NCBI RefSeq assembly: GCF_030406905.1
Contig: NZ_CP129137.1
Coordinates: forward strand, 7,223,501-7,287,500
DNA: 64,000 nucleotides
Direction: 5' to 3'
Origin: Streptomyces sp. HUAS CB01
GTDB lineage: Bacteria > Actinomycetota > Actinomycetes > Streptomycetales > Streptomycetaceae
Shown here one piece after another: positions 10,986 through 13,206 of the stretch. The number at the start of each line of letters is the position of its first letter. Within the stretch, counting starts at the first letter, position 1. A program made the translations under genes and the position numbers. Below the pieces are notes generated by a model, which saw only the letters and a list, made by a program, of their open reading frames with translations, made no database searches and was not told the DNA's origin.

Positions 10986-11147
10986 GACCGCATCCGTCAC
11001 AGACGGCTGTTCCTCATCGCCCCGCCGCACCGCTGCCCTCGCATCCGGCCGATGAACCGGATTTCATCCGTATTTCAACGCCCCTGGCCAGCATGGACTC
11101 ATCGCTCATCGTGTGAGCCGCGCCTGCATCCACAACGAAGAGGACAC

Positions 11148-11390
11148 ATGGGGCTGTTACATGCCTTGCGTATGCAGAAACTCGTTTCGGACGCCCGAAC
11201 CGCCTATGGCAGAGGCGACGCGCTTTTCGTCGCCGGGTTCGACATCGACAGCCGGGCCAGGGTGTCCATGAAGGCGATCCGCAAGGAGATCAACAAGATC
11301 ATCGCGGCCGTGGAGCCGATCGGCTGGGAGTGCGTCAGCGTACAGCCGTTCCTCGCGTCGGTTGAGATCGACTTCATGCGCCGAGAGTGA
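11148..11390 (+). CDS. small conserved protein upstream of the graspetide precursor
   Basis: The 80-aa product starts MGLLHALRMQKLVSDARTAY and ends CVSVQPFLASVEIDFMRRE. ATG 11148 has GAGG about 5 nt upstream; an earlier in-frame ATG (11052) gives an implausible extension. It is a soluble alpha/beta protein with a basic centre (VSMKAIRKEINKIIAAVEPI). Its stop is 70 nt before the RiPP precursor on the same strand, so it may be in that operon. I do not know its function, and it is not one of the standard graspetide genes. Confidence 0.75.
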   Translation: MGLLHALRMQKLVSDARTAYGRGDALFVAGFDIDSRARVSMKAIRKEINKIIAAVEPIGWECVSVQPFLASVEIDFMRRE

Positions 11391-11460
11391 GCACGAACCC
11401 GGAGACCTCCCCTACGGAGGAAGCGAGCCCCCGAACAGTAGGAAGCGAAGGAGACGAACG

Positions 11461-11706
11461 ATGACAACGCGAGACGCCGGCGCACCCTGGGGCATCACCC
11501 GCATGGCACCGTATGCCGAGACGCGGCCGGTTCCCCCGTGCACCGCGGTGATCGACCCGGAGACCCAGATCGCCGTCGTGATCGACGAACACGGCCAGGC
11601 GGTCGAGCTCCACCACCAAACGGGCAGCGGCACGTCGAGCTCCACGAGCACCGGCTTCGCCGACAGCTATGACTCGGACAGCTCGTCGGACTCCGACCAC
11701 GACTGA
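11461..11706 (+). CDS. tgmA: ATP-grasp-modified RiPP (graspetide) precursor peptide
   Basis: This is an 81-aa precursor with GAAGGAG before ATG 11461. The leader PWGITRMAPYAETRPVPP, followed by TAVIDPETQIAVVID, is the conserved recognition part of putative ATP-grasp target peptides (TIGR04186 type). The C-terminal 27 residues form a Thr/Ser-rich then Asp-rich core (TGSGTSSSTSTG, then SYDSDSSSDSDHD) with six Asp in the last 15 residues. The maturase is expected to join Thr/Ser hydroxyls to Asp carboxylates as side-chain esters. The stop overlaps the next start by 1 nt (TGATG). The gene symbol follows the tgm naming for this family. Confidence 0.85.
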   Translation: MTTRDAGAPWGITRMAPYAETRPVPPCTAVIDPETQIAVVIDEHGQAVELHHQTGSGTSSSTSTGFADSYDSDSSSDSDHD

Positions 11707-12821
11707 TGACGACACGCCCGCTCGGGCCGGTGCTGGTACTGACCAGCCTCCACGACGTGACCGCAGACGTGGTCCTGCGCATCCTCGCGGAACAGCAGGT
11801 CCCGGTGGTCCGTCTCGACCCCGGCACAGACCTGCACACAGGTGCCGCGCTCACCGCCACGTACCGTACTGGTGATCAACGCGGCACCTTGCGCACGCCG
11901 ACCCGCGAGCTCGACCTCACCGAGGTGCGCTCCGTCTGGACGCGGCGTCCCTCCCCCTACGAGGGGCCGCCCGACCTGGGCGGCCAGGAGCGCCGGTTCG
12001 CTGCCTCCCAGTCCCTGTGGGGCGTCGGCGGCATCCTGGCGTCGCTTCCCGGAGCCCACTACGTCAACCACCCGTGGAGCAACCGGGCGGCCGAGTACAA
12101 GCCGGCCCAGCTGGCCACAGCACAGCGCAGCGGCCTGTCCGTCCCGTCCACACTGATCACCAACGACCATGAACGTGCCCGTGAGTTCGCCGCCCAGCAC
12201 TCCGGTGCCGTGGTCTACAAGCCGTTGTGGAACACGCCCTGTGCGATCGACGGCAGGGCACAACAGGTGTGGGTTCGCGAAGTGCGCCCGCACGAGATCA
12301 CGCGCGCCGTGGCCGTCTGCCCGCATCTGTTCCAGGCCAAGGTGGAGAAGGCGTTCGACGTACGCATCACAGCTGTCGGCAGCCGGGTGTTCGCGGTCCG
12401 CATCGACAGTCCGGACCTTGACTGGCGGCAACGGCAGTCCCTCATGGAGTGCACGCCGATCGCCGTCCCCGCCCGGATCGCGCGCTCGGTGTCCGCGTAC
12501 CTCAACACCTTCCGGCTGGTCTTCGGCGCCTTCGACTTCGCCGTCACGCCCGCCGGCGACTGGTACTTCCTCGAGTGCAACCCCAACGGACAGTGGGCGT
12601 GGCAACCCACTCCGGTGACCGACTCGATCGGCCGTGCCATCGCCGACGAACTGCAAAGGGCCTTGGAGCATGAGCCGGCCCGTGCCGACAACGGTGCGGA
12701 GGCGCGCCCCCGGCGGCCAGGGTCGCTCCCGCCGTATACGTCGAGCGGTGATCAGCCACCGGTCACCGTGCAGGAGTACGGCGACGTTCCGGAGCCGCTG
12801 TGGCCTTCGACGTTCATGTAG
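11706..12821 (+). CDS. tgmB: ATP-grasp ribosomal peptide maturase (SAV_5884 family)
   Basis: The 371-aa protein has an N-terminal pre-ATP-grasp domain (VLVLTSLHDVTADVVLRILA, VWTRRPSPYE, then HYVNHPWSNRAAEYKPAQL). The ATP-grasp core follows: VVYKPL with the ATP-binding Lys, VCPHLFQAKVEKAFDVRITA, FGAFDFAV, and the Mg-binding end WYFLECNPNGQW. It matches the SAV_5884-type graspetide ligases that form omega-ester rings in the adjacent precursor, and it is translationally coupled to that precursor. The PIMT-like methyltransferase (tgmC) that usually completes such loci is absent on either side. Confidence 0.9.
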   Translation: MTTRPLGPVLVLTSLHDVTADVVLRILAEQQVPVVRLDPGTDLHTGAALTATYRTGDQRGTLRTPTRELDLTEVRSVWTRRPSPYEGPPDLGGQERRFAASQSLWGVGGILASLPGAHYVNHPWSNRAAEYKPAQLATAQRSGLSVPSTLITNDHERAREFAAQHSGAVVYKPLWNTPCAIDGRAQQVWVREVRPHEITRAVAVCPHLFQAKVEKAFDVRITAVGSRVFAVRIDSPDLDWRQRQSLMECTPIAVPARIARSVSAYLNTFRLVFGAFDFAVTPAGDWYFLECNPNGQWAWQPTPVTDSIGRAIADELQRALEHEPARADNGAEARPRRPGSLPPYTSSGDQPPVTVQEYGDVPEPLWPSTFM

Positions 12822-12824
12822 TGG

Positions 12825-12997
12825 GTGCCCGTTCCGCCCGCCGTTCCCCGGCCCAAGAACACCAACGCTCCCTTCCGCGGCCTCGGCACCAGCAAGGACA
12901 CCTCCCGCACGGCGCCGGCGGCAAGTCCCGAAAGGCCGGCGAGGCCCGCAAGCTCGCCGAGGCCCGCAAGGCCGCCCTCGTGCGTCGCAACGGCTGA
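12825..12997 (+). pseudogene. possible small basic protein, frameshifted
   Basis: From GTG 12825 one frame reads PRPKNTNAPFRGLGTSKDTS. The adjacent frame gives GGKSRKAGEARKLAEARKAA ending LVRRNG and a stop at 12997. Together they would make a plausible small, highly basic protein of about 56 residues, if a single base was lost near 12912. Either half alone looks incomplete. It directly follows the maturase. A chance overlap remains possible. Confidence 0.35.
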
Positions 12998-13206
12998 GAG
13001 TCGTTGCCCTGTCAGCGAATCTCCTGGTCACGGGACCGACAGCCCCCGGCCCGGCCCGAAGCCCGTCCTGTGCCCCCACTACGCAGCGAACGCCCTCGGC
13101 CGCGAGAGGGACACCCGCCGAACGGAGCAGGATGATGTTGCCGGCACCCGCACTGTGCCCGGCATGACAAGCTGTGCTGGCCCACCCCCGAACCCAGGAG
13201 GTCCCC

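Follow-up and report, generated by a model that had tools for sequence, protein, structure and literature searches.

The closest described systems are the graspimiditides. The four that have been characterised are Thr-Asp stem-loops in which an Asp of the loop, itself followed by Gly, is methylated (PMC13001092); the same source calls the role of the aspartimide enigmatic and lists Ser among the residues predicted to follow the Asp, at position n+1. Amycolimiditide, a group 13 graspimiditide of Amycolatopsis, is generated from a precursor by an ATP-grasp ligase and a methyltransferase (PIMT), and contains four nested esters and a 10-residue loop with an aspartimide at an Asp followed by Gly (PMC12291112, PMC13003496). 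Its esters are set beginning at the loop and proceeding outwards (PMC13003496). In fuscimiditide, esters join Thr3 to Asp22 and Thr7 to Asp18 (PMC12291112), such that this peptide obeys a constant-sum rule; pre-fuscimiditide, the product of ThfB prior to the action of the methyltransferase ThfM, presents these two mirror esters and a 10-residue loop without an aspartimide. SsfA(BM), a group 13 graspetide of Streptomyces sp. F-3, is described as containing five linkages, one of them postulated to involve the C-terminus, together with isoAsp introduced by SsfM (PMC10787088, PMC13001092). Finally, rosaritide, of group 21, is produced by a TIGR04187 synthetase that requires an additional, strictly co-occurring protein, MirC, and its rings interlock (PMC13097080). 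Carter et al. state that group 13 is 'almost always' found with a PIMT (PMC13097080), wording which implies that exceptions exist.

The locus of Streptomyces sp. HUAS CB01 considered here resembles that of amycolimiditide in encoding a precursor and an ATP-grasp ligase, as well as in the four nested stem-loop esters predicted below, yet differs in having no PIMT, no Asp-Gly and a predicted loop of only six residues. As such, it has the look of a graspimiditide pathway halted ahead of methylation, and its product would end where pre-fuscimiditide stands, with four predicted esters rather than two. With SsfA(BM) it shares an origin in Streptomyces group 13 and a predicted multiplicity of esters, and with rosaritide a TIGR04187 synthetase next to a further co-encoded protein, although this protein is not strictly conserved, unlike MirC. 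No account of this methyltransferase-free branch was found in the literature searched, a scope outside which lie the main 2021 and 2023 group surveys and the amycolimiditide paper; within that scope, the proposal of the first-pass annotation that the locus is a candidate for an undescribed product stands.

A graspetide locus without an adjacent methyltransferase

The window, namely the whole stretch of 64,000 bp that was analysed, corresponds to C1:7,223,501-7,287,500 of the 8.1-Mb genome (G000), and the features discussed are listed in Table 1. The precursor matches TIGR04186 (E 4.6e-21; 74.7 bits, cut-off 25) and PF14408 (53.7 bits, cut-off 25), while the maturase matches TIGR04187 (E 4.1e-122; 407.3 bits, cut-off 350); the precursor stop and the maturase start have one base in common. 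Judged by its genes, this is a graspetide locus. The nearest relatives of the maturase are found in other Streptomyces loci, and a sequence search of the PDB returned 9bou as top match, then AMdnB (7m4s), with CdnC (7mgv) also being matched. When the precursor and two sister precursors were searched in the same way, nothing useful was matched. If, as seems likely, the border between leader and core lies at about T54, the core contains 4 Thr, 11 Ser and 6 Asp (D68, D71, D73, D77, D79 and D81). The first-pass annotation had described a compact locus in which a precursor with about four Thr, many Ser and six Asp in its core is coupled to an ATP-grasp maturase, with an 80-aa gene just upstream, a large SARP regulator preceding that gene and no methyltransferase alongside, all of which was borne out.

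Table 1. Positions, in the window, of the genes, predicted regulatory elements and predicted core segments.
Feature	Position	Strand	Basis or remark
AfsR-like large SARP (BTAD, NB-ARC, TPR), 971 aa	8070..10985	+	Pfam, NCBIfam
Putative SARP box TTTCATC / TTTCAAC, repeat starts 11 bp apart	11062..11079	+	Just after the SARP gene
Candidate -10-like CAGCAT	11089..11094	+	9 bp after the second heptamer; assigned from spacing
80-aa accessory gene	11148..11390	+	Predicted fold alpha-beta-alpha-beta-beta; 17 homologues
Graspetide precursor, 81 aa	11461..11706	+	TIGR04186 and PF14408; leader with PWGITRM and VIDPETQIAVVIDEHG
Donor arm T54, T58, T62, T64 (predicted)	11620..11652	+	Thr spacing 4-4-2; each Thr with a mirror Asp
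Predicted loop, residues 65-70 (GFADSY)	11653..11670	+	Without Asp-Gly
Acceptor arm D71, D73, D77, D81 (predicted acceptors; D79 spare)	11671..11703	+	Mirror register, position sum 135
ATP-grasp graspetide maturase, 371 aa	11706..12821	+	TIGR04187

Downstream of the maturase gene lie genes for a DUF5302 protein, an aspartate decarboxylase and a GNAT-like protein. Just 3' of the maturase, at positions 12800-13001, what appears to be a single short gene is split over two frames, as might follow from a frameshift or from the decay of a small gene. Across the 13 methyltransferase-free loci described below, no tailoring gene recurred (at least three loci, E 1e-10) besides those for the SARP, the precursor and the maturase and their other-frame shadow ORFs, as judged with a filter (60 aa, high GC3) that was itself incomplete, having missed the 80-aa gene and clustered the precursor and maturase in 10 loci only. 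The genome contains a second graspetide locus some 49 kb upstream, outside the window (L011:6165-7370; C1:7,186,164-7,187,369), with the core TTTSTAGSKTHFDD, a TIGR04187 maturase scoring 369.9 bits and no TIGR04188 match beside it.

At the study locus, no PIMT-type gene was detected near the maturase, either with the TIGR04188 profile or by tblastn, and the whole genome contains no methyltransferase above the TIGR04188 cut-off. The best TIGR04188-like gene scores 272 bits (cut-off 380) and lies at C1:2,719,647, about 4.5 Mb away. A protein search with this gene gave matches in 47 of 61 Streptomyces genomes, its own included (E<=1e-60), 46 of them at identities of at least 60%; the gene is widespread in the genus. 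When places over the TIGR04187 cut-off in the 61 genomes were paired with TIGR04188 genes (E<=1e-90) within 5 kb, 42 of 84 places had such a gene and 42 had none, the latter count being possibly inflated by contig ends, weaker methyltransferases and the 5-kb limit (in G399, one lies ~5.5 kb off). The absence of the methyltransferase, which the annotation had presented as unusual, is thus common, though it looks derived in this particular lineage. Nor was a methyltransferase of the family consistently paired, from elsewhere in the genome, with the methyltransferase-free locus in the five such genomes checked, the arrangement that the annotation had named as counting against its proposal: no methyltransferase over the cut-off is encoded in G000 or G266, and each of the four that reach it in G128, G221 and G374 directly adjoins a different maturase.

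Methyltransferase-free maturases form one clade

When 84,980 species genomes were scanned with six exact maturase peptides, 55 loci (L022-L076) were obtained, a sample that favours close relatives and is not complete. A PIMT-type match (tblastn, E<=1e-3) directly follows the maturase in 43 of these, with none being seen in the remaining 12 (L022-L033). A tree of 54 maturases was assembled from 13 methyltransferase-free rows (the study locus included), 40 methyltransferase-bearing rows and, as outgroup, the genome's own paralogue; L074, L075 and L076 were left out for want of an extractable maturase, and L066 was entered truncated. The 13 methyltransferase-free maturases form a single clade (support 97/100) nested among the 40 others, and methyltransferase presence or absence maps onto the tree as one change, as in 98% of 200 bootstrap trees. 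Because methyltransferase-bearing rows occupy the successive outer branches, the simplest reading is that the clade is an offshoot of methyltransferase-bearing group 13 that lost the enzyme, with the long branches of the outgroup and of L072 leaving the root not beyond doubt.

Remnants of a methyltransferase gene were sought in the methyltransferase-free loci. The initial queries were the methyltransferase ORFs of L034, L036, L045, L049 and L053 (none from L056), each over-extended at the N-terminus and used at E<=1. Most matches fell at or just beyond the 3' end of the maturase gene, mainly to the over-extension, an out-of-frame reading of the maturase gene; a further three comprised two in L032 (E 0.73 and 0.25) and one in L027 (E 0.39). 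Since two matches of the over-extension kind ran past the maturase stop, the search was redone with 34 methyltransferases cut to begin at that stop, yielding 25 matches at E<=1. The best was in L031, where about 10 residues following the maturase resemble the start of a methyltransferase and contain a stop (E 0.001, 34 queries); a weaker match of this sort was found in L028 (E 0.92), and one in L022 was antisense (18-31 residues, E 0.002-0.004). A profile search gave a best E of 0.96, as compared to 0.015 in the reversed-sequence control. The study locus gave no match in the initial search or in its repeat. With the profile faring no better than its control, no remnant in these loci was considered convincing; a very short vestige may follow the L031 maturase.

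Absence of Asp-Gly and a predicted ladder of esters

Asp-Gly is found inside the core ladder of 39 of 40 methyltransferase-bearing cores and of 0 of 13 methyltransferase-free cores, a comparison that omits L072, L074 and L076, from which no precursor could be extracted, and that counts the truncated L028 among the 13. On the tree, the absence of the methyltransferase and that of Asp-Gly amount to one evolutionary event, not 13, and do not replicate each other. The sole methyltransferase-bearing core without Asp-Gly, that of L067 (4447-8066), contains Asp-Ser instead; this graspimiditide-like locus also presents a second PIMT match, upstream and on the opposite strand. With the maturase falling among PIMT-bearing maturases and with the PIMT and the loop Asp-Gly both missing, the study locus was filed as a methyltransferase-free variant of group 13 and not as a graspimiditide.

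The arrangement of possible esters was addressed by counting the Thr-Asp pairs whose positions add up to one and the same value, as expected of a hairpin in matched register. The study core offers four such mirror pairs, T54-D81, T58-D77, T62-D73 and T64-D71, leaving over D68 and D79, and four rungs were reached in a fraction of 0.017 of 1000 arm shuffles. The corresponding fractions were 0.014-0.015 in L022-L024, 0.057 in L033 and 0.076 in L029; support was weak (0.12-0.32) in L025, L026, L027 and L030, as those cores are rich in Thr and Asp. Five rungs were found in L031, from Kitasatospora griseola (0.014), and six in L032, from Streptacidiphilus melanogenes (0.001), the latter being the strongest single case for a predicted ladder, with gaps of four that match between the two arms. 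The truncated core of L028 allows one rung. This precursor of Streptomyces oryzae (L028:5737-5922) is 61 aa long and stops soon after the second core Thr, reflecting a broken gene or a sequencing error; an S. echinatus record (P0036; 59 aa) is short at the opposite end.

Among methyltransferase-bearing rows (L056 and L070, which were misread, excepted), 21 of 23 amycolimiditide-like cores reach four rungs (shuffle fractions 0.006-0.061). Of 15 fuscimiditide-like cores, 13 reach three rungs, no better than shuffles (0.12-0.92), and two reach four, such that the rung count has little power on cores of this kind. Across 26 precursor homologues, several of which correspond to sampled loci, four rungs were counted in 18, five in six, three in one and none in one (truncated), these being raw counts with no shuffle control. 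In the 24 with at least four rungs, the loop spans six residues in 21 and seven in three, and its acid is conserved as Asp (21/24) or Glu (3/24). When arms were swapped, methyltransferase-free donor arms dropped from 4-6 to three rungs on methyltransferase-bearing acceptor arms, while methyltransferase-bearing donor arms still made 3-5 rungs when given the SD-rich acceptors, in which alternate residues are Asp and many spacings can therefore be matched.

Statistical support for the mirror ladder is moderate. The product of the locus is probably a small peptide hairpin containing four side-chain ester bonds and, given the order reported for amycolimiditide, these would be expected to form from the loop outwards. 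The annotation had judged the ring topology not obvious and perhaps new; the mirror spacing instead predicts four nested esters of the known stem-loop type in shortened form, a topology that is not obviously new.

A SARP and its putative target promoter

The SARP contains BTAD (125 bits), NB-ARC (41 bits) and TPR matches in Pfam and scores 494 bits against NCBIfam AfsR, below the equivalog cut-off of 1430. A homologue of its first 300 residues is encoded upstream, at 79-92% identity, in 7 of the 12 methyltransferase-free relatives. The motif of the putative SARP box is matched only once in the window; a slightly altered form of it, searched with up to three mismatches, is likewise matched once in the 8.1-Mb genome. 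The box lies upstream in all eight loci with a close SARP (the study locus, L022-L027 and L029) and in none of the five without, a pattern possibly due in part to plain relatedness; two of the loci without the box, L030 and L032, gave only distant SARP matches, elsewhere. SARP promoters are described as having direct repeats 11 or 22 bp apart, the 3' repeat being 8 bp from the -10 element (PMC10936776), against which the repeats here are 11 bp apart and the -10-like hexamer lies 9 rather than 8 bp away. A consensus scan of the locus found no sigma-70 promoter and no terminator, a result that says little in Streptomyces. The 11-bp direct-repeat box fits SARP control, with this SARP as the likely regulator.

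The 80-aa gene does not strictly accompany the graspetide genes

With 17 homologues and, in an alignment of 21 sequences (some near-identical), 31 invariant columns, the 80-aa ORF is by these signs a real gene. Its product has no match in Pfam and only an insignificant one in NCBIfam (E 0.02). An AF2 model (mean pLDDT 92.2) returned no Foldseek match in the PDB at E<=0.001; the best TM-scores, to the IF3 C-terminal domain and an IF3 model (0.71 and 0.74), were not read as homology. Codon 4 of the gene (11157-11159) is TTA, as in L024 and L025 but not in L022, L026 or L029; this codon is rare in Streptomyces and is linked to bldA.

The annotation had suggested checking whether this gene co-occurs with the graspetide genes. 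It is intact in five of the 12 methyltransferase-free relatives (L022, L024, L025, L026 and L029), L027 retains a 39-residue match, and tblastn detected no match in the other six, nor in any of the 43 methyltransferase-bearing loci. In one of those six, L023, the gene is deleted between conserved flanks; in both L023 and L027, the precursor and maturase genes remain open. A survey of 394 genomes found 16 copies of the family in 15 genomes. Five adjoin graspetide genes (the study locus, L078, L079, L080 and the remnant L089), whereas 11 have no graspetide gene within ~1.5 kb, two of these (L090 and L091) being weak matches close to an opposite-strand SARP-like gene; the same held for all four of the 11 that were checked over ~3.6-7.5 kb on each side. 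In L083 (G144) and L092 (G255), the family forms the N-terminal part of frames of 265-281 aa, about 60% identical to the study protein. Given the patchy presence and the copies outside graspetide loci, the gene is better seen as a neighbour that joined, or stayed with, part of the clade than as a required partner.

Discussion

Taken together, the locus is read as a SARP-controlled, methyltransferase-free offshoot of group 13 that makes a mirror stem-loop with four esters, a reading to which we assign a probability of roughly 0.7. The SARP would activate one promoter, at ~11062-11094, driving transcription of the 80-aa, precursor and maturase genes together. The maturase would bind the PWGITRM-type leader and join T64 to D71, T62 to D73, T58 to D77 and T54 to D81, probably in that order, giving a stem-loop with a six-residue loop at a loss of 72 Da, and an unlinked protease would presumably remove the leader. 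The ancestor would have carried a PIMT making an aspartimide at a loop Asp-Gly, with the lineage subsequently losing both enzyme and site as the loop shortened. More tentatively, the lineage may have dropped aspartimidylation once and then built longer ladders, extending its mirror Thr-Asp rungs around a fixed short loop from four to five (L031) and six (L032).

The most serious competitor, in our view still unlikely, is a product other than a mirror hairpin, in which D68 or D79 serve as acceptors, Ser residues serve as donors or the rings cross. Six Asp and eleven Ser are on offer, the mirror statistic is no more than moderate, and it has been suggested that the maturases in this branch accept a variety of cores (PMC8939145). 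Yet every one of the four Thr in the study core has a mirror Asp, L031 and L032 combine more Thr with matching ladders of five and six, and the four characterised graspimiditides are stem-loops (PMC13001092). We consider it distinctly less probable that the maturase is inactive without the 80-aa protein, as is the rosaritide synthetase without MirC: the gene has been deleted or reduced next to open precursor and maturase genes in L023 and L027, is without a tblastn match in five further methyltransferase-free loci and mostly occurs away from graspetide genes, even if it comes first in the presumed transcript, is intact in 5 of 12 relatives and has a precedent in partner-dependent graspetides (PMC13097080).

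Least probable of all is that the product is aspartimidylated in trans, at D68-Ser69 of the loop, by the unlinked PIMT-like enzyme encoded at C1:2.72 Mb. That gene falls below the family cut-off, has close matches across most of the Streptomyces genomes searched and sits between what we take to be genes for an FHA-domain protein and a globin, while the over-cut-off methyltransferases of G128, G221 and G374 serve as neighbours to other maturases. The gene is nonetheless present, the loop acid is conserved, L067 combines Asp-Ser with a PIMT and Ser is among the predicted n+1 residues; in all four characterised graspimiditides, however, it is Gly that follows the Asp (PMC13001092).

If the preferred reading of a methyltransferase-free, four-ester stem-loop holds, then a sister clade that has neither enzyme nor site, and no long loop, would serve as a natural control for the effect of the aspartimide on activity. 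Likewise, ring topology could be predicted from sequence by the mirror-spacing rule, with cores of four, five and six rungs allowing a direct test, and the six rungs of L032, if true, would outnumber SsfA's five reported linkages. The single SARP box, moreover, would provide a simple handle with which to try switching on the locus in its host.
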